Part shown: in pieces, positions 50,318-62,090 of the stretch
Layout of the letters: each line of letters starts with the position of its first letter
How positions within the stretch are numbered: the stretch's first letter is position 1
Translations under genes and position numbers: made by a program
Origin: Planococcus liqunii
GTDB taxonomy: Bacteria > Bacillota > Bacilli > Bacillales_A > Planococcaceae
Direction of reading: 5' to 3'
Length of the DNA stretch: 64,000 nt
Assembly: GCF_030413595.1 (NCBI RefSeq)
Contig: NZ_CP129238.1
Coordinates: 1,798,001 to 1,862,000, forward strand
Notes under the pieces: generated by a model
Told to the model about the DNA's origin: nothing
The model's database searches: none
The model's input: the letters and a program-made list of their open reading frames with translations, nothing else

Positions 50318-50409
50318 TTTTTGAAGAAATGTAAATTCACCCTATAGATGGAACTTATTATCTTTCATTTCGTAAGGATAATTAAAGTAATAGGAAAGGA
50401 GAAAGACGT

Positions 50410-50904
50410 ATGCCATTTAAAAAAATTGTCCTGATGAGTGGGGCGATTGTTGTGTTTATACTGGCGGCGCTCATCAGCTGGTATGAAGGTGGGCAATTGC
50501 GCGACGAACCGTGGGAATGGCGGTATACTGCCGTATTCTCTAACTGGGCAAATGAAGGCTTCACAAACGAGGACAATCTGTGGATACTTGATCATTTTGT
50601 TTATGCCGCAAAGTTTGAACCGCTTTTTCCGTTAGTGATGGCGATATCGTTCTACTTCGTTTTGTTCCAGCTGACTTTTTGGTTATTTAGAGGTAGAAGA
50701 ACCGTACGAAATGCGATTTTATTGCTCGTAGCAAGCTTCTCTTTCCTGGCTTGCTATGCCTTATTTGATTCGCCGACCATTGGCTTTCAGCTGTTTGCCT
50801 TGCTATTCGGGTTGGCAGGGGCATTATCCGTATTTAGGATGATTGCTGTTAAATCCGGTGGATACAGTGAAGCTAAGGGCTTTGGAAAAGGGGAGTTTTC
50901 GTGA
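50410..50904 (+). CDS. Membrane protein, possibly DUF4306 (YjdJ of Bacillus)
   Basis: 164 residues, four hydrophobic helices. ALISWYEGGQLRDEPWEWRY followed by FSN resembles DUF4306 proteins (from memory). AAAGGAGAAAG precedes ATG 50410. A short hairpin ACAGGAA/TTCCTGT follows the stop. Confidence 0.55.
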   Translation: MPFKKIVLMSGAIVVFILAALISWYEGGQLRDEPWEWRYTAVFSNWANEGFTNEDNLWILDHFVYAAKFEPLFPLVMAISFYFVLFQLTFWLFRGRRTVRNAILLLVASFSFLACYALFDSPTIGFQLFALLFGLAGALSVFRMIAVKSGGYSEAKGFGKGEFS

Positions 50905-50932
50905 CAGGAAGCCATTCCTGTTTATAAGAATC

Positions 50933-50972
50933 AAAGGAGACAGCCGATTGAAAAACGGCAGTCTCCTTTTTG
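50933..50972. terminator. Terminator between convergent genes
   Basis: AAAGGAGACAGCCG/CGGCAGTCTCCTTT with an 8-nt loop and one bulge, followed by TTG. Confidence 0.8.
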
Positions 50973-50982
50973 TATACCTCTA

Positions 50983-52191
50983 TTATTCCTGCACCGTCCG
51001 CCATAAAAGAACTCTTCCTTTATAAGCAACCAAGCTGACTGCTGCTAGCAAGATACCTGACAAGACGAAGACTCCGCGGATGCCAAATGAATCTGCCAAA
51101 ACACCCATTATGAGAGAAGCGATACCGAACGTTCCCGTTCCAATTGCACCGAGCGTTGTGAACACCATCGGCAATTGTCCTTTCGGTACACTTGTCTGGA
51201 CCACTGTTTGCTGCGGAATGTTTTTGATTTGGCCGAACAGCCCAACTAAAAAGGACAATAGCAATGCCAGCAGCGGCAGGCTGTTTAGCCCGAAAAGAAT
51301 GGTGGCAAAACTGCCAGAAATAGCACCCAGGAAAATGAACTGGCTAAGCTTTTGTTCGATCCGGTCCGAAAAGTGCAGACAGAACAGGCTGCCTGCGATC
51401 AATCCGAGAAAGAAAGAACCGTTGATGAAGCCCCACCATTGTTCGTCGGCCGATAAAGCATCGCTGACAAAAACATAAAGAATTGCGGCGATCCAAACGG
51501 TGCCGGCAACGGTTTCCAGCACGTCCATCCAGGCAATCCGTTTTAGCACGGGTGAAGCGGAAACGGTCTGCCAGCCTTGGGTGATTTGCTGCCGCTTGCT
51601 TTGCTCCTTGGAAGGCGTAATGTTAACGGACTCCAACCCGCATAAAAGAAGGCTCGACAAGAAAAACAAAGCCGCAGTCAGCCAAACCAAATCGTTTGCT
51701 GAGAGCCAAATCAACAGTGAGCTGCCAACAAACCACATGGCGGTTTGGATCGACTGGGTAATAGTTTCAGTGATACCATTCGCTTTTAACAGCTGTTCAC
51801 TCTTCACGTAATGCGGGAAGAGTGTTTGAGTCACAGGGTTGGCACAGCCGTCCAGCAAGGCAACTATACTGATGACTGGAAATAGCACATAGTAGTTGGA
51901 AAGAGAGAGTTGCGGCAATAAAGATGCTAGCAAAATCAGCAAGGCGGTTTTGCCCATCTGCGAGCCAGTTAGCAGCCATTTCAAATTGAAGCGCTGCATC
52001 AGCAACGGCGTCAATGTGTTTGACAGAAACATTGATGCGGTAATGGTAAATGGCACGAAAGCGGCTGCCGTAGCCGATCCGGTCAATTCAAAAATCAGAT
52101 AAATCACGCTGACAATGTACAAGACGTCGCCAATATTGGCAAGCGACTGCCCGGTCAACAGCAAGTTGAAATTTCGATTCAGTTTCATCAT
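50983..52191 (-). CDS. MFS transporter (MFS_3/enterobactin-exporter-like)
   Basis: About 402 residues, 12 helices. LLLTGQSLANIGDVLYIVSV in helix 1 and the unusual YVFVSDAL..DEQWWGFINGSFFLG fit the MFS_3 group. GGGGGA lies before two adjacent ATGs (52191, 52188); the first ATG of the frame at 52212 lacks a ribosome site. Substrate unknown. Confidence 0.85.
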   Translation of the reverse strand: MMKLNRNFNLLLTGQSLANIGDVLYIVSVIYLIFELTGSATAAAFVPFTITASMFLSNTLTPLLMQRFNLKWLLTGSQMGKTALLILLASLLPQLSLSNYYVLFPVISIVALLDGCANPVTQTLFPHYVKSEQLLKANGITETITQSIQTAMWFVGSSLLIWLSANDLVWLTAALFFLSSLLLCGLESVNITPSKEQSKRQQITQGWQTVSASPVLKRIAWMDVLETVAGTVWIAAILYVFVSDALSADEQWWGFINGSFFLGLIAGSLFCLHFSDRIEQKLSQFIFLGAISGSFATILFGLNSLPLLALLLSFLVGLFGQIKNIPQQTVVQTSVPKGQLPMVFTTLGAIGTGTFGIASLIMGVLADSFGIRGVFVLSGILLAAVSLVAYKGRVLLWRTVQE

Positions 52192-52450
52192 TGTATTCCC
52201 CCATGAATTCAATTCGTAATTGTTTTGAATGAATGGGGTTATTTAAATTGGACTACGGGTCATGTCGAATATTCCTTTCGGCTGGCGGACGGCTCCGGGG
52301 GAAAGGGAGGTGTCCTAAATTTTGGCTAGCTCCATTATACGCTAAATATTCGGAAAATAAATGGCAGTGAAAGAAGAAATTGGATATAGTTAAATAGAAA
52401 AGCGGTTCGATAACGGCTTGCGTGTATGTATTTGCAAAGGAGATTTTCTT

Positions 52451-52921
52451 ATGGAGTTACTGTTAAAACCAATGGACCGTAAGGTGGCTGAAGAAATTTT
52501 AAGTTGGCAATATGATCCGCCGTACGATTTTTACAACACAGAAACAACTGAAGAAGAAATGTCTGAACGTCTCAATGGAGCTTGTTTTGCCTTGCAGGAA
52601 GGTTCAGGAGAGCTCGTAGGGTTCTTCTGCACCGGAAAAAGTGCACAAGTTCCGGCCGGCCAGCTTCAAGGTGTGTATAAGGAAGTTCTTACCGATATCG
52701 GGCTTGGGATGAAACCGAAGTTAACCGGGAAAGGGAATGGGTCAGCCTTTACTTCGTTCATCATTAATTGTATTGAAGAGAACTATGAAAGCGTCCCTAT
52801 CCGCCTGACCGTCGCTCTATTTAATAAAAGGGCAGTTCACTTATATAAAAAACTTGGGTTTGTTCCTGACAAGCAGTTTCGGAACAATTATGCTGAATTT
52901 ATGACGATGGTCAAAAGATAA
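52451..52921 (+). CDS. GNAT family N-acetyltransferase
   Basis: 156 residues from ATG 52451, which has AAAGGAG 8 nt upstream. LGMKPKLTGKGNGSAFTSFI is the acetyl-CoA loop and NKRAVHLYKKLGF the C-terminal block. Resembles the YjdJ-unrelated RimJ-like group acting on small molecules; substrate unknown. Confidence 0.85.
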   Translation: MELLLKPMDRKVAEEILSWQYDPPYDFYNTETTEEEMSERLNGACFALQEGSGELVGFFCTGKSAQVPAGQLQGVYKEVLTDIGLGMKPKLTGKGNGSAFTSFIINCIEENYESVPIRLTVALFNKRAVHLYKKLGFVPDKQFRNNYAEFMTMVKR

Positions 52922-52969
52922 ATTAAATTCTCTAAGAAAAACAGCTTTTTTAGAAAGGGTTTTATTGTG

Positions 52970-53734
52970 ATGAAACATATCTTTGCTTTTGAATCGATAG
53001 AAGAATATAAGAAGCATGAAAGTCTTATCCAGCGTTTCAGCGATCGATTAAATGGATACCAAGAAATACTCGAAGAAAATTTTGCCTTAACAGAAGCACC
53101 GAAGGCGATTGTATGGACCTCCGCTGAACTCGCAACTTCCGTTTTCTCTGAAATACCGATTCCTGCATTTACGAATAAAGACACAATCTACATATCTCCG
53201 GATTTAACAGCATGGAGAGAACTAATGATCGAACAATTGGATGGAAAAGATTTGCCGCATATTCAGCGTTTTTACGAAAACTTTTCTGAGAATCTTTTAT
53301 TTACTATATTGGCACATGAACTAACACACCACTCCGATTTGTTTGTAGATGAGTTTGATGAGGAATGGCATGACAGTATCTGGTTTGAAGAAGGAATGTG
53401 CGAATACTTGCCCAAAAAATTATTATTAAGTGAGAGCGAATTTAATGGCATAACTGCAGTAGAGACAGAACTGGTTGAAGTATTTACCGAAGAATACGGG
53501 TTAAGATCGCTCGATGAATTCGGAAGCGCTTCGTATAAGGGGAGTTTATCCAGCATCATGTTTGATTACTGGAGAAGCTTTTTAACCATTAAGTTTTTAG
53601 TAGAAGAGCGTTATCAAAACGATGTTCGTCTGATTTTGGAGGATTATCGTAAATGGCACGAAGGAGGAAGAAAGACATCTCTTTCCTCTTATTTTAATAT
53701 CGAACAGATGATGAAGAAAATAGATGCACGATAA
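52970..53734 (+). CDS. HExxH zinc metallopeptidase-like protein
   Basis: 254 residues, cytosolic (no signal). ILAHELTHHSDLF carries the HExxH motif and WFEEGMCEYLPKK supplies the third ligand Glu about 35 residues later, as in gluzincins. Ends in a helical region. AAAGGG lies before GTG 52967/ATG 52970. Possibly a protease or a peptidase-fold regulator; no substrate known. Confidence 0.7.
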   Translation: MKHIFAFESIEEYKKHESLIQRFSDRLNGYQEILEENFALTEAPKAIVWTSAELATSVFSEIPIPAFTNKDTIYISPDLTAWRELMIEQLDGKDLPHIQRFYENFSENLLFTILAHELTHHSDLFVDEFDEEWHDSIWFEEGMCEYLPKKLLLSESEFNGITAVETELVEVFTEEYGLRSLDEFGSASYKGSLSSIMFDYWRSFLTIKFLVEERYQNDVRLILEDYRKWHEGGRKTSLSSYFNIEQMMKKIDAR

Positions 53735-53906
53735 AAAGTATGGGAAGTAAAACGGAAAACGAATGATATGATTCTGCGCGTTTATAAAAACACGCTGGAA
53801 TTTCCAACCGACTTTTACAACGGGTATTAGTATTTACATCTGCCGGTTGCTGCCTAAGCACATCAGTTGCTCTTTTAATATATTCAAGTTATTCTAGTCA
53901 CAAGAC
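53735..53906. other. Intergenic leader of the sulfur locus
   Basis: About 170 bp of AT-rich DNA with no ORF. It ends at the CstR-type site at 53907. Confidence 0.3.
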
Positions 53907-53922
53907 ATACCCCTGGGGGTTT
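53907..53922 (+). promoter_or_regulatory. CstR-type operator 1
   Basis: ATACCC-CTGG-GGGTTT, one mismatch from ATACCC-N4-GGGTAT. Upstream of the interrupted micro-ORF and DUF302 gene. Confidence 0.7.
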
Positions 53923-53943
53923 AATTTGGCGAAGGAGATTTTC

Positions 53944-54036
53944 ATGAAGACATTTTGGAATTTGCTTTGACCAGCACAGCGCTTAGCATTCCTGGCAGGA
54001 ATTGCGTTTTTTGTTTTTATAGTCCTCACCAAATAA
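53944..54036 (+). pseudogene. 30-codon membrane micro-protein interrupted by TGA
   Basis: GAAGGAG lies 6 nt before ATG 53944. MKTFWNLL, then TGA at 53968, then PAQRLAFLAGIAFFVFIVLT and K before TAA. The post-stop part is a clean membrane helix in the same frame, so a Trp or Arg codon probably became TGA. Sits directly behind CstR-type operator 1. Confidence 0.5.
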
Positions 54037-54125
54037 AAGTTAATACAAATGGCCAAATGATTCTTTGGCTGATAAGAGGGAACAATACTTAGGAATAGAC
54101 ATATAAAAAGAGAGGAGTTTTCAAT

Positions 54126-54509
54126 ATGTTCAACTACACAGTAGAAACGGAAAAAGGCAGAGACGAAGCGGTTCAAGCGCTCGCAGAAAATCTGCAGGCA
54201 GAAAAGTTTGGAATCCTGTGGAATTTTGATCTGACAGCAAAACTTCAGGAAAAAGGCACAGATTTTGATACTCCGTTCACCATCCTCGAAGTTTGCAACC
54301 CTCAGGAAGCAAACCGGGTGCTGTCAGAAGATTTGATGGTAGGATACTTCCTGCCATGCAAAATTGTCGTGTATGAAGAAGAGGGAACGACGAAAATCGG
54401 CATGCCAAAACCAAGCGCTTTAATCGAAATGGTGCATAATGAATCGATTAAGCAAATTGCTTTGGATATTGAAGAAAGATTGATTGGCTGTATTGACAAA
54501 TCTGTATGA
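54126..54509 (+). CDS. DUF302 domain protein
   Basis: 127 residues covering one DUF302 domain: EKFGILWNFDLTAKLQEKG, DTPFTILEVCNPQEANRVL and YFLPCKIVVYEE. Two conserved Cys. AGAGGAG precedes ATG 54126. DUF302 proteins often lie with sulfur-oxidation genes; this one sits first in the CstR-regulated locus. Biochemical role unknown. Confidence 0.85.
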   Translation: MFNYTVETEKGRDEAVQALAENLQAEKFGILWNFDLTAKLQEKGTDFDTPFTILEVCNPQEANRVLSEDLMVGYFLPCKIVVYEEEGTTKIGMPKPSALIEMVHNESIKQIALDIEERLIGCIDKSV

Positions 54510-54549
54510 GAATAAAAGCTGAAGATAGAATAACTGCAATTATAGAAAA

Positions 54550-54606
54550 CGGGGCAGTTCTAATAGATTGATTTCGCTTAAGGAAGAAAAGCGGACTGTC
54601 CTTTTT
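54550..54606 (+). terminator. Terminator after the DUF302 gene
   Basis: GGGGCAGTTC pairs with GGACTGTCC (G-T pairs), with an inner CGCTT/AAGCG stem, then TTTTTAA. Confidence 0.6.
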
Positions 54607-54631
54607 AAGATGAAACAAAACGCTTGAAATA

Positions 54632-54647
54632 ATACCCAAAGGGGTAT
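54632..54647 (+). promoter_or_regulatory. CstR-type operator 2
   Basis: ATACCC-AAAG-GGGTAT, a perfect 6-4-6 palindrome upstream of cstR. Implies autoregulation. Confidence 0.8.
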
Positions 54648-54697
54648 AAAATTGATCATCATTAACATTTACTTCGTTTATAGGAGGGTTAGAACCT

Positions 54698-54958
54698 ATG
54701 GAATACGATAAACAAGTCCAAAACCGGCTGAAACGGATTGAAGGCCAGCTGAAAGGCGTCCTGCGGATGGTCGAAGAAAACGACGATTGCCGCGATGTAG
54801 TTACCCAGCTGTCTGCAGTTCGAAGTGCAGTGGATCGCGCAATCGGCGTCATTGTCAGCGAAAACCTGGAACAGTGTGTCCGTGAAAGCCTTGAAAAAGG
54901 GGAAAGCACCGATCAGCTTGTAAAAGATGCAGTGAGCCTTCTGGTCAAAAGCCGCTGA
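54698..54958 (+). CDS. Persulfide-sensing repressor CstR (CsoR family)
   Basis: 86 residues. NRLKRIEGQLKGVLRMVEE, then Cys31 and QLSAVRSAVDRAIG, then Cys60 in SENLEQC. The Cys pair at 31/60 matches Staphylococcus aureus CstR, and the His of copper-sensing CsoR is replaced by Asn. Inorganic persulfides link the two cysteines and release DNA (family knowledge). AGGAGGG precedes ATG 54698. Likely binds the ATACCC-N4-GGGTAT sites in this locus. Confidence 0.92.
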   Translation: MEYDKQVQNRLKRIEGQLKGVLRMVEENDDCRDVVTQLSAVRSAVDRAIGVIVSENLEQCVRESLEKGESTDQLVKDAVSLLVKSR

Positions 54959-54992
54959 GAAAATTCGTCAATCAAGTGTTGACGAATTTTCT
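54957..54992 (+). terminator. Terminator overlapping the cstR stop
   Basis: AAATTCGTCAA/TTGACGAATTT with a 7-nt loop, then TCTC. The descending arm also contains the -35 element of the next promoter. Confidence 0.75.
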
Positions 54993-55021
54993 CTCGGATG
55001 ATAATATACCCTATGGGGTAT
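54979..55021 (+). promoter_or_regulatory. Promoter and CstR-type operator 3
   Basis: TTGACG (54979-54984), 17-bp spacer and TAATAT (55002-55007). ATACCC-TATG-GGGTAT (55006-55021) overlaps the -10 element and start site. Confidence 0.85.
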
Positions 55022-55064
55022 GTGAATGAAGTGTGGATGTTTTATTTTTTATTTAAAATTTCAT

Positions 55065-55080
55065 ATACCCCCAAGGGTAA
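55065..55080 (+). promoter_or_regulatory. CstR-type operator 4
   Basis: ATACCC-CCAA-GGGTAA, 44 bp after operator 3, in the leader of the first DsrE gene. Confidence 0.75.
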
Positions 55081-55102
55081 ATAGAGTGGAGGAAACAAGG
55101 CA

Positions 55103-55582
55103 GTGGAACAAACAAAATCAACAAACATTATTTTATTCAGCGGAGATTACGACAAAGCGATGGCCGCTTACATCATCGCGAACGGCGCAGCAGCCTTTGA
55201 TCATGAAGTAACGATTTTCCACACATTCTGGGGATTAAATGTATTGCGGAAAGACAAACCGCCTGCCGTAAAGAAAGGTTTTCTTGAACGGCAATTTGCC
55301 AGAATGATGCCGCGGGGCGCAGACAAGATGGGCTTGTCCAATATGAATATGGGCGGCATGGGACCCAAAATGATCAAACAAGTGATCGGCAAGCACAATT
55401 CGATGACGATGCCGCAATTGATCGAGATGGCACAGGAACAGGACATCCATCTGGTGGCATGTACAATGACGATGGATCTTCTCGGACTGCAGCAGGAAGA
55501 ATTGCTTGACGGCGTAACCTATGCGGGCGTGGCTGCTTATTTGGCAGATGCAGAAGACGGCAACGTGAATTTATTCATTTAA
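55103..55582 (+). CDS. DsrE/DsrF-like sulfur-carrier protein
   Basis: 159 residues from GTG 55103 (GGAGG upstream). DsrE fold with ILFSGDYDKAMAAYIIANGA, TIFHTFWGLNVLRK, and Cys120 in HLVACTMTMDLLGLQ as likely sulfur carrier. A Met/Gly-rich loop (NMNMGGMGPKM) sits mid-protein. First gene of the main operon. Probably accepts and relays sulfane sulfur to TusA/rhodanese partners. Confidence 0.88.
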   Translation: MEQTKSTNIILFSGDYDKAMAAYIIANGAAAFDHEVTIFHTFWGLNVLRKDKPPAVKKGFLERQFARMMPRGADKMGLSNMNMGGMGPKMIKQVIGKHNSMTMPQLIEMAQEQDIHLVACTMTMDLLGLQQEELLDGVTYAGVAAYLADAEDGNVNLFI

Positions 55583-55598
55583 CGAAAAGAGGGGAAAT

Positions 55599-55964
55599 AT
55601 GGATACTTGGTTAATGATTTTAATCGGTGCTGTTATTGTTTTTATCGGTTACCGCGCGATCGCACCAGCAAAAGGCGGAAAATCCATTTCGACGGATGAA
55701 CTGAAGCCAGAACTTAAGAAAATCGGCAAACAATTCATTGATGTAAGAACACCAGCAGAGTTCAAAGCAGGGCACATCAAGGAATTCAAGAATATTCCGC
55801 TCAATGAATTGCCAAATCGCCTGAATGAACTGAACGCAGAGCAAGACATTTACCTGATCTGCCAGAGCGGTATGCGAAGCAGCAGAGCAGCAGACATATT
55901 AAAGAAAAATGGTTTTGAGCAAGTCGTTAATGTAAGAGGCGGCATGAACAATTACCGTCCATAA
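55599..55964 (+). CDS. Membrane-anchored rhodanese
   Basis: 121 residues. N-terminal membrane helix (about 4-22), then a single rhodanese domain with FIDVRTPAEFKAGHI and active Cys88 in CQSGMRSS. AGAGGGG precedes ATG 55599. Sulfurtransferase held at the membrane within the cst-like operon. Confidence 0.9.
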   Translation: MDTWLMILIGAVIVFIGYRAIAPAKGGKSISTDELKPELKKIGKQFIDVRTPAEFKAGHIKEFKNIPLNELPNRLNELNAEQDIYLICQSGMRSSRAADILKKNGFEQVVNVRGGMNNYRP

Positions 55965-55982
55965 ATTGAAGGAGGAAAAACA

Positions 55983-56279
55983 ATGAACCGAATGGCCACA
56001 CAAGAAGTACAAGAACATATTAAAAACAATAAAGATGCGTCAATTATCGATGTGCGCGAAACAGAAGAAGTAAAGGCAGGAAAGATTCCCGGCGCAGTTA
56101 ATACCCCTTTAGGGCTTATCGAGTTCCGTCTGCAGGATATCGACAAATCTAAAGAACACATCCTAGTTTGCCGATCCGGCAACCGCAGCGGCATGGCAAC
56201 AAATATCCTTGAAAGCCGCGGCTACAACGTTATCAATATGGATGGCGGCATGCTGGACTGGGACGGACCGACTGAGTAA
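55983..56279 (+). CDS. Single-domain rhodanese
   Basis: 98 residues. SIIDVRETEEVKAGKIPGA and active Cys63 in LVCRSGNRSG. AAGGAGG precedes ATG 55983. 18 bp after the previous gene, cytosolic sulfurtransferase. Confidence 0.92.
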   Translation: MNRMATQEVQEHIKNNKDASIIDVRETEEVKAGKIPGAVNTPLGLIEFRLQDIDKSKEHILVCRSGNRSGMATNILESRGYNVINMDGGMLDWDGPTE

Positions 56280-56303
56280 GTAAAATTTTTTTTAACTGAA
56301 AAT

Positions 56304-56319
56304 ATACCCCACTGGGTAC
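56304..56319 (+). promoter_or_regulatory. CstR-type operator 5
   Basis: ATACCC-CACT-GGGTAC, one mismatch, 16 bp before the tusA-rhodanese start. Suggests an internal regulated promoter. Confidence 0.75.
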
Positions 56320-56334
56320 TAGGAGGATCATTAC

Positions 56335-56904
56335 ATGATTAAAACTGACCAAATTCTTGATGCAAAAGGGCTTGCATGCCCAATGCCGATCGTACGCACG
56401 AAAAAAGCGATGAAAGACTTGGAACCCGGACAAGTGATTGAAGTGCAGGCGACCGACAAGGGTTCGCTTGCCGATATGAAAGCTTGGGCGAAAAGCAGCG
56501 GCAACCAGTATCTCGGTTCTTCTGAAGAAGGCGATGTGCTGAAGCATTACTTGCGGAAAGCAGATTCGTCAGAAGAAAAGGACGAGATTAATTTCCCACA
56601 TACGGTGACAAATAGCGAATTGCAGGAGCAGCTTGGACGCGGCGGCATAATCATTTTGGACGTCCGGGAGCCGGCAGAATTTGCATTCGGACACGTAAAA
56701 GGCGCGGTATCGATCCCTCTTGGAGAACTGGATCAGCGGGCAGGCGAATTGGATTCAGAAAAAGAAGTTTTCGTCATCTGCCTCACAGGCAACCGCAGTG
56801 ATTTTGCAGCGAAGCAATTGGCTGAAAAAGGCTTTGGCCGCGTGAAGAATGCCGTAGAGGGCATGAGCCAATGGGCCGGCGAAACGAAACAAAGCAGTAG
56901 CTAA
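56335..56904 (+). CDS. TusA-rhodanese fusion (CstA-like)
   Basis: 189 residues. TusA domain (1-75) with Cys15 in GLACPMPIV; rhodanese domain (about 92-183) with ILDVREPAEFAFGH and Cys149 in VICLTGNRS. Staphylococcal CstA combines rhodanese, TusA and DsrE parts in one chain; here the DsrE part is a separate gene just downstream. Intramolecular persulfide transfer between Cys15 and Cys149 is likely. TAGGAGG precedes ATG 56335. Confidence 0.9.
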   Translation: MIKTDQILDAKGLACPMPIVRTKKAMKDLEPGQVIEVQATDKGSLADMKAWAKSSGNQYLGSSEEGDVLKHYLRKADSSEEKDEINFPHTVTNSELQEQLGRGGIIILDVREPAEFAFGHVKGAVSIPLGELDQRAGELDSEKEVFVICLTGNRSDFAAKQLAEKGFGRVKNAVEGMSQWAGETKQSSS

Positions 56905-56941
56905 GCAATCTTACAATTTAACTTAACTGGAGGAATACCAA

Positions 56942-57337
56942 ATGGCAGGAAAAACAGCAATCATCGCATCAAACGGTTCATTATTCGATGCGTACAAAGT
57001 TTATAATATCGCAACAGCCGCAGCAGCAAGTGATCACGAAGTGGCGATTTTCTTCACATTCGAAGGATTGAACTTGATCCACAAAGAAGCATACGGACAA
57101 TTGGCTTTGCCGAAAGGCAAGGAGCAATTGGCAGAAGGTTTCAAAAAGGCGAATGTACCCGCCATTCCGGAATTGGTCGAACTGGTATAGGAACTGGATG
57201 TAAAATTCATCGGCTGCCAAATGACGATGGATGTCATGGGCCTTGAAAAAGACGCTTTCATCGACGGTATTGACGTCGGCGGAGCTGTCACGTTCCTGGA
57301 CTTTGCAAAAGACGCAGACGCCACCTTAACGTTTTAA
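56942..57337 (+). pseudogene. DsrE family protein interrupted by an in-frame TAG
   Basis: 131 codons plus stop. ATG 56942 with GGAGG upstream; MAGKTAIIASNGSLFDAYKV, IFFTFEGLNLIHKEAYGQL and VPAIPELVELV, then TAG at 57188-57190, then in the same frame ELDVKFIGCQMTMDVMGLEK and DAFIDGIDVGGAV. The sulfur-carrier Cys in FIGCQMTMD lies after the stop. A CAG codon turned to TAG would explain it. Either a nonsense mutation, suppressed readthrough or a sequence error. Confidence 0.8.
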
Positions 57338-57360
57338 TCCAAAAAAATTTACGTAATAAA

Positions 57361-57376
57361 ATACACTAGGGGGTAT
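57361..57376 (+). promoter_or_regulatory. CstR-type operator 6
   Basis: ATACAC-TAGG-GGGTAT, one mismatch, directly upstream of the persulfide dioxygenase gene. Confidence 0.75.
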
Positions 57377-57380
57377 TTGT

Positions 57381-58508
57381 ATGACAGTAAAAGCAATGAC
57401 AGCCAAACAAGTAGCAAGAAAAGTAATCGATCACGAACCATTGTTCATCCTGGACGTGCGCAACGGCGACGCATTCGCCGACTGGAAAATCGAAGGCGGC
57501 AACATTCAGTATTTGAACATCCCTTATTTCGATTTATTGGACGGTGTCGAAGAAGTGGTTTCAGAACTTCCGACAAACAAAGACATCTTAGTGGTTTGTG
57601 CGAAAGAAGGATCTTCTGTCATGGTGGCGGAAATGCTGGATGAAGAAGGCGTGGAGGCAGCGTATCTAGAAGGCGGCATGAAAGCGTGGAGTGAACAACT
57701 GGAACCAGTGAGAGTCGGCGATTTGAAAAACGGCGGCGAATTGTACCAGTTCGTCCGCATCGGAAAAGGCTGCCTGTCGTATATGGCCATCTCCGGCGGC
57801 GAAGTTGCGATTATCGATGCCACCCGCATGACCGATATCTTCCTGGATTTCGCGCAGGAAAAAGGAGCGACGATCAAGCACGTATTCGACACGCACTTGC
57901 ACGCAGACCACATTTCCGGAGGACGCCAAATCGCAGAAGCGACGGGCGCAATCTATTACTTGCCGCCGGCGGACGCAGAAGAAGTGGTATTCGACTATGC
58001 GGAATTGGTGGGTGGACTGGAAGTCTCGATTGGCGATGCAAAAATAGAAATCGAAGCCTTGTACTCACCCGGGCATACCATCGGGTCGACATCGTTCATC
58101 GTGGACGATCAATACTTGATGACAGGTGACATTCTGTTCATCGATTCCATCGGCCGTCCTGACCTTGCAGGCCTTGCAGAAGACTGGGTAGGCGACTTGC
58201 GTGAATCGCTTTACAGCCGCTACGCAGAATTGGCTGACGAGCTGATCGTATTGCCGGCTCACTTCATGATCATGGAAGAGCTGAACGAGGACGGCAGCGT
58301 CGCGAAAACATTGGGCAGTCTGTTCAAAGAAAACCACGGATTGAATATCGAAGACGAGCAAGAGTTCCGCGATATGGTCACGAAAAACCTGCCGCCGCAG
58401 CCGAACGCATACCAGGATATCCGCCAGACGAACATGGGGAAAATCACACCGGACGATGAAGTGCAGCGCGAAATGGAAATCGGACCGAACCGCTGTGCAG
58501 TCCGTTAA
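57381..58508 (+). CDS. Rhodanese-persulfide dioxygenase fusion (CstB-like)
   Basis: 375 residues. N-terminal rhodanese (about 8-110) with Cys73 in VVCAKEGSS, then a metallo-beta-lactamase domain with THLHADH (His172, His174, Asp176, His177), His232 in SPGHTIGS, Asp250 in MTGDI and His294 in PAHF. Oxidises glutathione, bacillithiol or CoA persulfide to sulfite with O2 and Fe(II) (family knowledge). In staphylococcal CstB the dioxygenase comes first; here rhodanese is first. The start ATG 57381 follows GGGGG, partly overlapped by the operator. Confidence 0.9.
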
Positions 58509-58560
58509 TTCTAAATCAAAAATTCAACTAAAAAAGCAGAAACTCAAAGGAGAGAATACG

Positions 58561-58788
58561 ATGAACGCAGATAAAGTATTAGACGCAAAAGGCTTGGCTT
58601 GCCCAATGCCGATCGTCAAAACAAGAAAAGAAATGAAAGACATGGAGTCTGGCCAAGTGTTGGAAATCCTGGCAACCGATAAAGGCGCAAAAGCGGACAT
58701 GACGGCTTGGGCAAAATCGGGAGGCCACGAATTGCTGGACATTCAAGAAGAAGGCGGCGTCCTAAAATTCTGGATCAAGAAAGGCTGA
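58561..58788 (+). CDS. TusA sulfur-carrier protein
   Basis: 75 residues. KVLDAKGLACPMPIVKTRKE with Cys14. Very like the TusA half of the fusion at 56335, indicating a duplication. AAAGGAG precedes ATG 58561. Carries sulfane sulfur as protein persulfide. Confidence 0.93.
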   Translation: MNADKVLDAKGLACPMPIVKTRKEMKDMESGQVLEILATDKGAKADMTAWAKSGGHELLDIQEEGGVLKFWIKKG

Positions 58789-58797
58789 AAGCAGTAG

Positions 58798-58834
58798 GAA
58801 GGGTATCGCTGTGATACCCTTTTCTCTTTTGGAA
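58798..58834 (+). terminator. Terminator between tusA and tauE
   Basis: AAGGGTATC/GATACCCTT with loop GCTGT, then TTCTCTTTT. It leaves reduced read-through into tauE. Confidence 0.75.
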
Positions 58835-58847
58835 AGGGTGACAAAGA

Positions 58848-59624
58848 ATGAGTTTTGATTTTATTATCGTCATATTCCTGATCGGCTTTATCGGTTCTTT
58901 CATCTCCGGTATGGTCGGCATCGGCGGCTCGATCATCAAGTACCCGATGCTTCTCTACATACCAGTGATGTTGGGATATACCGCATTCAGTGCCCATGAA
59001 GTCTCCAGCATTAGTGCCATCCAAGTGTTTTTTGCGACAATTGCCGGGGTTTGGGCATACCGCGGCAGCGGGTATTTGAACAAAACGCTAATTGCCTATA
59101 TGGGCGGAGCCATTTTACTCGGGAGTTTCATCGGAGGCTACGGTTCGACGCTAATGTCTGAGCAGGCCATCAATGTCGTATACGCCGTTTTGGCCACGAT
59201 AGCGGTCATCATGATGTTCCTTCCGAAAAAAGGAGTCGACGATATCCCGCTCGATCAGGTCACGTTCAATAAATGGCTGGCAGCCGCATTGGCCTTTATC
59301 GTGGGGATTGCAGCGGGAGTCGTTGGAGCGGCGGGCGCCTTTATCCTGGTGCCCATTATGCTCGTGGTCCTGAAGATTCCAACCCGCATGACCATTGCAA
59401 CTTCACTCGCCATTACGTTTATCTCGTCCATTGGTTCGACCGTGGGGAAAATTGTTACCGACCAGATTTTATATGGACCTGCAGCGGTCATGATTGTAGC
59501 GAGCATTTTGGCTGCACCGCTTGGCGCAAAAATCGGACAGAAAATGAACACAAAGTATTTGCAATGGATATTAGCACTCTTGATTCTTGGGACAGCGATT
59601 AAAATTTGGGCGGATATTTTGTAA
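58848..59624 (+). CDS. TauE/SafE-type sulfite or sulfonate exporter
   Basis: 258 residues, eight hydrophobic segments. [18 protein letters not shown] and [18 protein letters not shown] are the two internal repeats of the TauE/SafE family. GAAAGGG precedes ATG 58848. It closes the operon and would remove the sulfite made by the dioxygenase. Confidence 0.9.
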
Positions 59625-59641
59625 TCGGACAGAGGCATAGT

Positions 59642-59676
59642 GAAAAGGAGACAGCACGTGGCTGTCTCCTTTTTTA
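59642..59676. terminator. Bidirectional terminator after tauE
   Basis: AAAAGGAGACAGC/GCTGTCTCCTTTT perfect 13-bp stem, loop ACGTG, T-tract on both sides. Confidence 0.92.
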
Positions 59677-59683
59677 TATTAGA

Positions 59684-60079
59684 TTACGGTTTGCAGTGTG
59701 TTTTTTCTTCGGCAAATCCAGAAGGATAAACCACTTGGCCTAATTTTTCATAGTCTGCCGTTGATTCGCCTACATAGATGATTTCGTCGCCCTCACCCGC
59801 TTGTTTATACATGTCACGGGCTAATTGGATCAACTCTTCTTCTGTTTGTGGAACCGGCACATCGGGTTCATCGATCTCTAAAATTGTCGTCTGTCTAATC
59901 ACAAATTGGGTTCCTTCCGAATTTGTTACAGTCTCATATGTAGTTAAATCGTTTTCATCACAAATTATCTGATCTTTTTTTAATTGGCCGTTGGAAACTA
60001 CTGCAGAACCTTTATATATAATCGGATAAAGAGCAGCCAATATAAACAAAATAAATGCCCATCTAAACAATCTTTTCAA
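59684..60079 (-). CDS. Exported or membrane-anchored protein of unknown function
   Basis: 131 residues from TTG 60079 (GGAGGAG upstream). Hydrophobic N-terminus (about 5-20), then an outside domain with two Cys (IICDENDL and the C-terminal HCKP) that could pair. ETVTNSEGTQFVIRQTTILE is the most structured part. Function unknown. Confidence 0.65.
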   Translation of the reverse strand: MKRLFRWAFILFILAALYPIIYKGSAVVSNGQLKKDQIICDENDLTTYETVTNSEGTQFVIRQTTILEIDEPDVPVPQTEEELIQLARDMYKQAGEGDEIIYVGESTADYEKLGQVVYPSGFAEEKTHCKP

Positions 60080-60397
60080 GCCATCTCCTCCATTTCTCCT
60101 TGAAAAAAAGAAACGCTACGAACCCATTAAACACCCGACTTATTAACTATGATCGTACCATTTATATGGATGGCGTAGTAGGGTTCCTAAAAAATATATT
60201 GGTCCTAAGCTCTATGAGTCAACTAAGAAAGGGCTTTCATTGATATTGTTATATTAAGAATAGTAATTAAAAGTCACAGTCATTTACTTAAACTTTGAAT
60301 GCATGTAGATTAAAATTAAAATAGGCCAAATAACCTTGCTAGTACTGGTTAGATATATGCTTTTAATATTTTTCGAACCATTCATTCATGAATTATA
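60080..60397. other. Intergenic region
   Basis: About 320 bp, AT-rich. Nothing recognised besides the nik promoter that begins at 60398. Confidence 0.35.
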
Positions 60398-60457
60398 TTG
60401 ACAATGAAAGCTCAGATAACTATAGTTACAATAGTGAAATTGATAATCATTATCAAT
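60398..60457 (+). promoter_or_regulatory. nik promoter with perfect Fur box
   Basis: TTGACA (60398-60403), 17-bp spacer and TATAGT (60421-60426). Then ATTGATAAT-C-ATTATCAAT (60439-60457), which contains the exact 7-1-7 Bacillus Fur box TGATAAT-N-ATTATCA near the transcription start. Predicts iron repression by Fur. Confidence 0.88.
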
Positions 60458-60482
60458 GAGAAAAGAGAGGAATTACATAATC

Positions 60483-62090
60483 ATGAATAAGCATAGAAAA
60501 TTTTTAGCAGTGGCCATTAGCTTGGCGATAGCGATCATACTGGGAGGATGTTCGGACGATAAAGCCGAATCGGCCAGTGGGGCTTCAGCGGACAACGCCA
60601 TCACAATCTCCTGGCCAAGAGATATCGGCCCTATGAATCCGCACGTTTATAATCCATCGCAGCTATTGGCCCAATCGATGATTTATGAACCGCTGGTCAG
60701 CTATAAAGAAGGCGGCGAAATTCAACCGCATTTGGCAGAGTCCTGGACGGTTTCCGAGGACGGATTAGAATACATATTTAAAATTCGTGAAAACGTTAAG
60801 TTTACTGATGGCTCGGCGCTTACAGCGGCTGTAGTCAAAAAGAACTTCGATGCGGTCATGAAAAATTCAAGTTCCCACAGTTGGCTTGGCGTAATCAATG
60901 TTTTGGAAAAGACTGAAGCAGTTGACGATCAGACTTTTAAAATGGTGCTAAAAGAGCCGTATTATCCGGCACTTCAGGACCTGGCAGTTGTTCGGCCGGT
61001 GCGATTCTTGGGCGAAGCAGGATTTCCAGAAGACGGCGACACGTCTAAAGGCATCACCGAGCCTGTCGGTACAGGTCCATGGATGCTGAAAGACTATAAG
61101 AAAGACGAATATGCGGTGTTCACCCGCAATCCCGAGTACTGGGGAGAAAGCCCGGAGCTTGAAGAAGTGAAAATCAAAATCATCCCCGATGCTGAAACCC
61201 GGGTTCTGGCATTTGAAAAAGGCGATTTGGATTTGATTTATGGCGAAGGTGTCATCAGCATGGATTCCTTTAATCAGTTGAAAGAATCCGGTGAATACCA
61301 AACCGCTCTTTCCAAACCAGTCGGAACAAGAAGCTTGCTGTTAAATACAACAAATGAAAAATTGGCAGATTTGCGGGTACGCAAAGCACTTCAGCATGGC
61401 TTCAACAAACAGGCGATGGTTGAAGGGGTCACATTAGGCTTAGAAGAAAAAGCAGATAATATTCTATCGACAAACTTCCCATATACCGATATTGAAGTAG
61501 AACCGTTTGACTACGATGTGGAAAAAGCTGCGGAATACCTGGAAGAAGCAGGCTGGAAGCTGCCTGCCGGAAAAGCAGTTCGCGAAAAGGACGGCCAGCC
61601 TCTCGAATTGGAATTAATCTACGACAAGACCGATCCCATTCAAAAAGCGATGGCCGAAACATTGCAGGCCGAATGGTCAGCACTCGGCATTAAGCTGAAT
61701 ATTAGCGGGCTTGAATTGACCACTCAAATTGAACGCCGGAAAGCCGGAGATTTTGATGTCGATTTCTGGTACAACTACGGTGCACCTTACGATCCGCATT
61801 CGTTCATCAATGTTGTAGCAGAAAAAGGATGGGGCGTTGCAGAAGCCCATTCGAACTTGCCGATGAAATCGGATTTGGACCAGCAAATAAAAGAAACACT
61901 GGGGTCTACGGATGAGGCGAAGCGCCAGCAATTATACGGTTCGATTCTTGGAACCTTACAGGAACAATCTGTTTTTGTGCCTATTTCTTATATTAAAAAG
62001 TCGGTCATTTACCAAAACGGTGTAGAAGAATTTATCTTCCCGGCAAACCGGGATGAACACCCTTTCAACGAAATGAAAATCAGCAAGTAA
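60483..62090 (+). CDS. Nickel/metallophore ABC transporter substrate-binding lipoprotein (NikA/CntA family)
   Basis: 535 residues from ATG 60483. Lipoprotein signal ending IILGGC, then SWPRDIGPMNPHVYNPSQL, GTGPWMLKDYKKDEYAVF and NFWYN-type C-terminal blocks (DFWYNYGAPYDPHSFINVV) close to NikA/CntA proteins. The Fur box upstream points to iron- or broad metal-chelate uptake (for example staphylopine-like opine or citrate/His complexes) rather than a dedicated nickel role. First gene of the importer operon. Confidence 0.87.
   Translation: MNKHRKFLAVAISLAIAIILGGCSDDKAESASGASADNAITISWPRDIGPMNPHVYNPSQLLAQSMIYEPLVSYKEGGEIQPHLAESWTVSEDGLEYIFKIRENVKFTDGSALTAAVVKKNFDAVMKNSSSHSWLGVINVLEKTEAVDDQTFKMVLKEPYYPALQDLAVVRPVRFLGEAGFPEDGDTSKGITEPVGTGPWMLKDYKKDEYAVFTRNPEYWGESPELEEVKIKIIPDAETRVLAFEKGDLDLIYGEGVISMDSFNQLKESGEYQTALSKPVGTRSLLLNTTNEKLADLRVRKALQHGFNKQAMVEGVTLGLEEKADNILSTNFPYTDIEVEPFDYDVEKAAEYLEEAGWKLPAGKAVREKDGQPLELELIYDKTDPIQKAMAETLQAEWSALGIKLNISGLELTTQIERRKAGDFDVDFWYNYGAPYDPHSFINVVAEKGWGVAEAHSNLPMKSDLDQQIKETLGSTDEAKRQQLYGSILGTLQEQSVFVPISYIKKSVIYQNGVEEFIFPANRDEHPFNEMKISK

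Follow-up and report, generated by a model that had tools for sequence, protein, structure and literature searches.

A candidate selenocysteine-containing microprotein gene, cstU, in the CstR-type persulfide gene cluster of Planococcus liqunii

The window analyzed here is a 64,000-nucleotide stretch (positions 1798001 to 1862000) of the one-contig, 3.96-Mb genome of Planococcus liqunii. It contains a persulfide detoxification gene cluster that is headed by a microprotein open reading frame (ORF) of 30 codons with an in-frame TGA and a TAA stop (53944..54036), for which we propose the name cstU. The TGA (53968..53970) is read here as a selenocysteine (Sec) codon. All coordinates are window coordinates, all features named are on the + strand, and L and G labels denote loci or stretches and genomes, respectively. 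On the sequence evidence below, it is extremely likely that cstU encodes a genuine selenoprotein and very likely that the cluster is a CstR regulon; taken together, we assign these two readings a probability of about 0.86.

RESULTS

A conserved microprotein ORF contains an in-frame TGA

The cstU reading begins with ATG at 53944, behind a ribosome-binding-like GGAGAT that lies between the first operator of the cluster and this codon, and continues as MKTFWNLL, TGA (U), PAQRLAFLAGIAFFVFIVLTK, and TAA. Because only 8 codons precede the TGA, cstU is invisible to an ordinary ORF list. The original prediction took the DUF302 gene (54126..54509, PF03625) to be the entry gene of the cluster, a position that instead belongs to this TGA-containing ORF, which sits between the operator at 53907 and DUF302.

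Related loci were compared as the best 80 of 109 found around cstR-like genes in other genomes; judged by CstR, the nearest of the named loci come from Planococcus (99% identity). The same arrangement stands before DUF302 in 7 of the 80 (L016, L017, L019, L021, L022, L025, and L028) and is also seen in L020, but there with a frame break before the TGA. When the window and the seven loci are aligned, 15 of 31 columns are invariant, including the UGA and the Pro right after it. L021, a 50-kb contig of Chryseomicrobium aureum (G040), holds a Planococcus-like cst locus whose microprotein gene is intact. This genome lacks SelB, and its assembly contains a second cstR that is 65% identical (L076); recent horizontal transfer and a mixed assembly are both possible.

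Genomes were searched with microprotein profiles, with stop codons read through, in a family set (n = 261) and a Bacilli set (n = 398) that share members. Matches were found in 12 of the 261 family genomes at E ≤3e-7 and in 17 of the 398 Bacilli genomes at E ≤1e-3, each with one internal stop that is always TGA. Nine of the 17 Bacilli copies belong to six other families, so that seven families are represented in all. An order-level search sampled the identical set of 261 genomes and yielded nothing new, and a phylum-wide search matched 4 of 383 genomes, two with known TGA copies and two with partial, stop-free matches taken as chance. Weaker matches in the family search (E ≥0.004) are partial, mostly stop-free, and look like chance; 32 family genomes with weak matches only (E 0.0151 to 0.0973) were left uncounted, as was a second weak match in G256 and G140, and two of the uncounted matches also contain TGA. 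Weak profile-scan matches in L039, L058, and L086 (E 0.67 to 0.83) were left as chance.

The reading after the UGA is conserved at the protein level. Past the UGA, third codon positions account for 260 of the 473 pairwise differences counted among eight close sequences. The in-frame ratio of nonsynonymous to synonymous differences (pN/pS) after the UGA is 0.27 to 0.51 in 8 of 10 chosen pairs, while in the two shifted frames it is at least 0.73 in 18 of 20 values, the other two being 0.69 and 0.60. The protein alignment (A5) leaves out three copies that are broken or start-less: L020; G043, in which the reading shifts after the hairpin described below and one lower pair of that hairpin is broken; and G256, in which the match starts only at profile position 4. 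A structure predicted from eight sequences with Cys in place of Sec (mean predicted local distance difference test score of 82.7, predicted template modeling score of 0.38) has a short helix at residues 2 to 7 and a long helix at residues 10 to 29 that meet at Sec-Pro. Basic residues lie on its N-terminal side, which suggests that the Sec would lie at the cytoplasmic membrane surface.

A SECIS-like hairpin follows the TGA

Downstream of the TGA is a hairpin (53986..54005) that resembles a Sec insertion sequence (SECIS), with a core stem formed by 53989 to 53992 and 53998 to 54001 and a UGGCA loop. To examine its conservation, 19 UGA-anchored sequences (17 distinct rows) were aligned without gaps; this alignment (A4) excludes L020 and G043, which are broken, and includes G256. 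Columns 22 to 25 pair with columns 31 to 34 in 68 of 68 cells. Of the 17 distinct rows, 10 have UA and 7 have CG at pair 22-34, a compensatory change. Three measures are higher than in any of 500 shuffles: paired cells, cells with both sides changed, and the covariation score. Extending the stem by three lower pairs gives 90.8% paired cells, with changes on both sides in three pairs; RNAalifold recovers the same core unprompted. The loop begins with UG in 19 of 19 sequences, 22 nucleotides past the UGA. As summarized in PMC13188914, the rule for bacterial SECIS elements is a G in the first two loop positions at 16 to 37 nucleotides after the UGA, and the cstU hairpin fits it in both loop G and distance. 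The SelD gene of the same genome has a similar element (UCC-UGA-GGA). Folding energy was tried as proof of a SECIS element and rejected as weak on the basis of z-scores against shuffles.

The hairpin could be read differently. If the TGA were a real stop, MKTFWNLL would be a leader peptide and the hairpin with its T-rich tract an attenuator or terminator before DUF302, and, in favor of this, the window hairpin precedes a T-rich tract and the residues ahead of the TGA form a short, conserved peptide. This reading would leave unexplained the protein-level conservation after the TGA. Distant copies, for example, those in L143, L187, and L191, have no T-run after the hairpin, and a terminator scan left the cstU hairpin unflagged. 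The stop of a leader could moreover be any stop codon, yet it is TGA in all 17 Bacilli matches. We consider an attenuator very improbable.

The Sec insertion machinery co-occurs with cstU

By profile scores, the Sec insertion gene set is complete in the window genome. SelB scores 352 bits (cut-off, 242; 2 of 14 control genomes pass), SelA, beside SelB, scores 566 bits (cut-off, 268), and tRNA-Sec scores 63.8 bits (cut-off, 47; 5 of 14 control genomes also pass). SelD contains a UGA at its active site and scores 417 bits to TIGR00476 when read through. These genes, selA, selB, tRNA-Sec, and the UGA-containing selD, make up a sel locus (L112, G000:C1:3722000-3740000). An ABC transporter that follows it reads by eye as phosphonate type and could import a selenium compound.

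In the family set, SelB passes the cut-off in 9 of the 12 genomes that carry the ORF versus 18 of the 249 that do not (Fisher test, 6e-8, kinship ignored), and in the Bacilli set it does so in 13 of 17 versus 72 of 381 (1e-6, kinship again ignored); the frame-broken copy of G116 was scored as having the ORF in these presence counts. The genomes of 28 named loci, likewise uncorrected for kinship, have SelB in 7 of the 8 whose locus carries the ORF (counting L020) and in 5 of the 20 whose locus lacks it. Many SelB genomes lack the ORF, which indicates that cstU is optional.

Under another alternative, the ORF would be a remnant in decay or a resemblance due to chance, and its TGA a nonsense mutation. 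Broken copies do exist (L020, with its frame break, and G043, out of frame after the hairpin), and a nearby gene of this strain, the second DsrE2-type gene, carries a nonsense codon. The identical TGA at the same place across seven families argues against decay, as do the third-position bias, the compensatory change in the hairpin, and the co-occurrence with SelB, and most of the copies that are broken or lack a start come from genomes with no SelB (G043 and G256). Decay or chance is in our view the least probable explanation, slightly less probable than an attenuator. Both readings were rejected.

Several observations nevertheless weigh against a Sec-containing product of a persulfide cluster. 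In-frame pN/pS is 1.02 and 1.21 in the pairs L019/L028 and L187/L190, and no Cys homolog of the microprotein was found among the significant genome matches or when the window, the 80 related loci, and two other stretches were scanned by profile. For the hairpin, the count of pairs with changes on both sides is reached by 452 of 500 shuffles and that of further pair types by 500 of 500; folding energy is not significant (z of 0.24 in the window and 0.47 to -2.05 in seven copies), and the minimum-energy single-sequence fold of L143 differs from the hairpin. The Fisher tests ignore relatedness, and the two genome sets overlap. Four genomes have the ORF and no SelB above the cut-off (G040, G043, G256, and G559), G116, a SelB genome, has the frame break before the UGA (L020), and 18 of 27 SelB genomes of the family are without the ORF. 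Finally, the copies in L190 and G102 lie outside any visible cst cluster.

The cluster carries CstR-type operators

The repressor gene (54698..54958) encodes a protein of the CsoR/DUF156 fold family (Pfam Trns_repr_metal, PF02583) for which the top-matching solved chain is 7mq1, deposited as CsoR; Cys31 and Cys60, noted in the original prediction, are present in the translation. Six ATACCC-N4-GGGTAT sites had also been predicted, and all are where they were placed: operator 1, ahead of the microprotein gene (53907..53922, one mismatch, kept in L016 and L017); operators 2 and 3, before and after cstR (54632..54647 and 55006..55021, no mismatches); and operators 4, 5, and 6 (55065..55080, 56304..56319, and 57361..57376, one mismatch each). 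All fall inside 3.5 kb, and they are the only sites at ≤1 mismatch in 3.96 Mb. At ≤2 mismatches, there is no genome-wide enrichment (48 sites versus 82 for a reversed control pattern), and the 20 matches at ≤3 mismatches in the window are not clearly over chance (mean of 14.1, standard deviation of 4.1). Since there are only six close sites and no enrichment at two mismatches, the cst locus is probably the entire direct target of CstR in this genome.

The perfect sites that flank cstR recur in most related loci, and sites at ≤1 mismatch number at least one in 73, at least three in 54, and at least five in 13 of the 80. Sequence and operator conservation thus lend good support to the proposed CstR-type persulfide regulon and its multiple internal operators. 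A promoter scan found 9 promoters versus 9.0 expected and was not used as evidence. A terminator-like hairpin between tusA and tauE (58797-58823) has arms that hold GGGTAT and ATACCC, the operator halves in reversed order.

The remaining genes form a known type of persulfide cluster

Behind cstR are genes for a DsrE2-type sulfur carrier (55103..55582, PF13686), a rhodanese with an N-terminal hydrophobic segment (55599..55964, PF00581), a single-domain rhodanese (55983..56279, PF00581), a TusA-rhodanese fusion (56335..56904, PF01206 and PF00581), a second DsrE2-type protein (56942..57337), a persulfide dioxygenase-like protein of the YrkH type with rhodanese and metallo-beta-lactamase domains (57381..58508, PF00581 and PF00753), TusA (58561..58788, PF01206), and a TauE exporter (58848..59624, PF01925). 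The carriers, the dioxygenase-like protein, and TauE thus stand under CstR-type operators.

Pfam bears out the rhodanese, TusA, metallo-beta-lactamase, TauE, and DUF302 domains that had been read from the sequence. Two DsrE proteins had also been counted: the first is intact, and the second is broken by a TAG at 57188-57190 that leaves 82 residues. This second gene is unbroken, at 131 to 136 amino acids, in the 15 of 80 related loci where it was recognized, and its TAG looks like an ordinary nonsense change, unlike the TGA upstream. The terms "rewired" and "expanded" in the original prediction overstate the case. The DsrE2, TusA-rhodanese, metallo-beta-lactamase/rhodanese, and TauE core is on one strand in 52 of the 80 related loci, and the layout resembles the yrkD cluster. 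By gene content and order, the cluster is a cst/yrk-type persulfide detoxification operon of the known kind, with no special rewiring.

There is no sqr in view, as had been noted, among the ORFs of 50365-62090. The window genome has 38 PF07992 matches, and the seven proteins inspected leave room for a type II SQR; for the three of these that were scanned, the best match was TIGR03169 in each case, below the cut-off, and two read by eye as NDH-2-like. A flavoprotein of the TIGR03169 kind is encoded at L177:7598-8686 (G000:C1:3892597-3893685; 275.7 bits, below the cut-off of 310); going by the family name, this kind is fused to SelD in other organisms.

Distant copies also lie in cst-type clusters

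All nine copies from other families were detected by sequence alone, with genomic context unused, and 8 of the 9 are in cst-type clusters (L187, L188, L189, and L191 to L195), with CstR-, TauE-, rhodanese-, DsrE2-, dioxygenase-, TusA-, or DUF302-like genes as neighbors; TauE is among these in L189 and L194. An operator with ≤1 mismatch is just upstream of the ORF in L189, L194, and L195 and just downstream in L191 to L193. In L189 (4626-7757), a molybdopterin oxidoreductase gene, possibly for another sulfur enzyme, is directly upstream of the operator and microprotein.

The order in L019, a related Planococcus, is operator, methyltransferase, microprotein ORF, and DUF302, followed by another dioxygenase-like protein, which shares 57% identity with that of the window (L019:5490-7830). 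The methyltransferase is UbiE/ArsM-like, and a similar one adjoins the distant copy in L188; a link to methyl-selenium or sulfur is possible.

G102, from another genus of the family, has an ORF that starts 39 bp behind a gene for an SQR-like protein, with no operator seen on its 4.8-kb contig. This protein scores 179.5 bits to chain 3h8i, which we take to be Acidianus SQR, and 149.6 bits to NF049943 (Sec-type type III SQR), below the cut-off of 525. Its cysteines align with residues 178 and 350 of 3h8i and not with residue 129, the three presumably being redox cysteines of the enzyme. This neighbor suggests a close alternative role for CstU, in which the microprotein would chiefly serve an SQR-like flavoenzyme, as its membrane partner or as a detached subunit that supplies Sec in trans, and would not be a general relay. 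Such a role would be in keeping with the listing of a Sec-type type III SQR among known selenoprotein families (PMC13188914). An SQR-like neighbor is found in only 1 of 18 aligned members, however, and the window genome has no close match to a type III SQR query (best, 26% identity and 62 bits). We therefore regard it as rather unlikely that this is the main function of CstU.

DISCUSSION

The function that we tentatively favor for CstU, possible rather than probable in our judgment, is that of a membrane selenopersulfide relay. CstR would hold the cluster repressed until its Cys31 and Cys60 become linked by sulfane sulfur. SelB would then decode the cstU UGA to give a small membrane peptide whose Sec lies on the cytoplasmic side of a single transmembrane helix, where the Sec could take up sulfane sulfur as a selenopersulfide, either from membrane-soluble polysulfide or from SQR-type enzymes. 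CstU would pass this sulfur to the rhodanese, TusA, and DsrE carriers and then to the persulfide dioxygenase, and TauE would export the product.

A broader proposal, to which we give slightly less than even odds, is that CstU represents a new selenoprotein family of ~30 to 35 residues, single-helix and possibly among the smallest, that is made on demand by a persulfide regulon of Bacilli, its membrane-surface Sec either relaying sulfur as a selenopersulfide or serving sulfide-oxidizing enzymes as a detachable partner, thereby tying selenium supply directly to sulfane-sulfur homeostasis and giving aerobic Bacilli grounds to retain Sec decoding. To our knowledge, CstU would rank among the smallest selenoproteins. 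None of 18 members matched NCBIfam, and none of 8 matched Pfam, at E values up to 10. Of the 119 prokaryotic selenoprotein families tabulated in PMC13188914 (May 2026), none is described as a single-helix protein of 30 to 35 residues with a U-P-[SA]-Q motif. A literature search by title and abstract returned, among the matches listed, no such selenoprotein in a cst, DUF302, sulfane-sulfur, or Planococcus setting, and the available text of the deep-Sep paper has no word starting with "planococc" (PMC12013277). For Bacillales, the count in a 2006 survey was three selenoprotein families (PMC1794560).

Selenoprotein genes are often overlooked when UGA is called as a stop, as are microproteins by reason of their length, and cstU is both. 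If the selenoprotein reading is correct, 17 of the 398 Bacilli genomes sampled (~4%) would gain a gene. It would also add a selenoprotein family without a known domain, place Sec inside the bacterial persulfide-stress response, and offer a simple CstR-controlled case for genetic testing of the use of Sec with sulfane sulfur.

As in known prokaryotic selenoproteins, the UGA of cstU is followed by a hairpin just downstream and occurs in a genome with SelA, SelB, tRNA-Sec, and SelD, and the known families include sulfur proteins such as DsrE-like, rhodanese-like, and type III SQR proteins (PMC13188914). The gene cluster resembles cst of Staphylococcus aureus, in which, according to PMC5480029, CstR with Cys31/Cys60 controls persulfide detoxification and tauE. 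The targets given there are cstA, cstB, and sqr, whereas the window cluster has separate carrier genes and no sqr; its dioxygenase has a rhodanese domain in front, there are six operators, and DUF302 and the microprotein are added. S. aureus CstR is viewed in the same source as controlling a single operon, with which the probable single target locus here agrees. The closest likeness in layout is to the yrkD cluster of Bacillus licheniformis as described in the available text of PMC9918477, in which the repressor YrkD, 50% identical to S. aureus CstR, binds two intergenic regions and represses two promoters. In both clusters, a CstR-like repressor comes first, followed by DsrE-like, rhodanese-like, persulfide dioxygenase-like (YrkH), TusA-like, and TauE genes, and more than one promoter is under the repressor. 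The B. licheniformis cluster holds nreBC and sqr-pdo, both absent from the Planococcus cluster, while the latter has a DUF302 gene and a putative small selenoprotein gene that go unmentioned for the yrkD cluster in that text.

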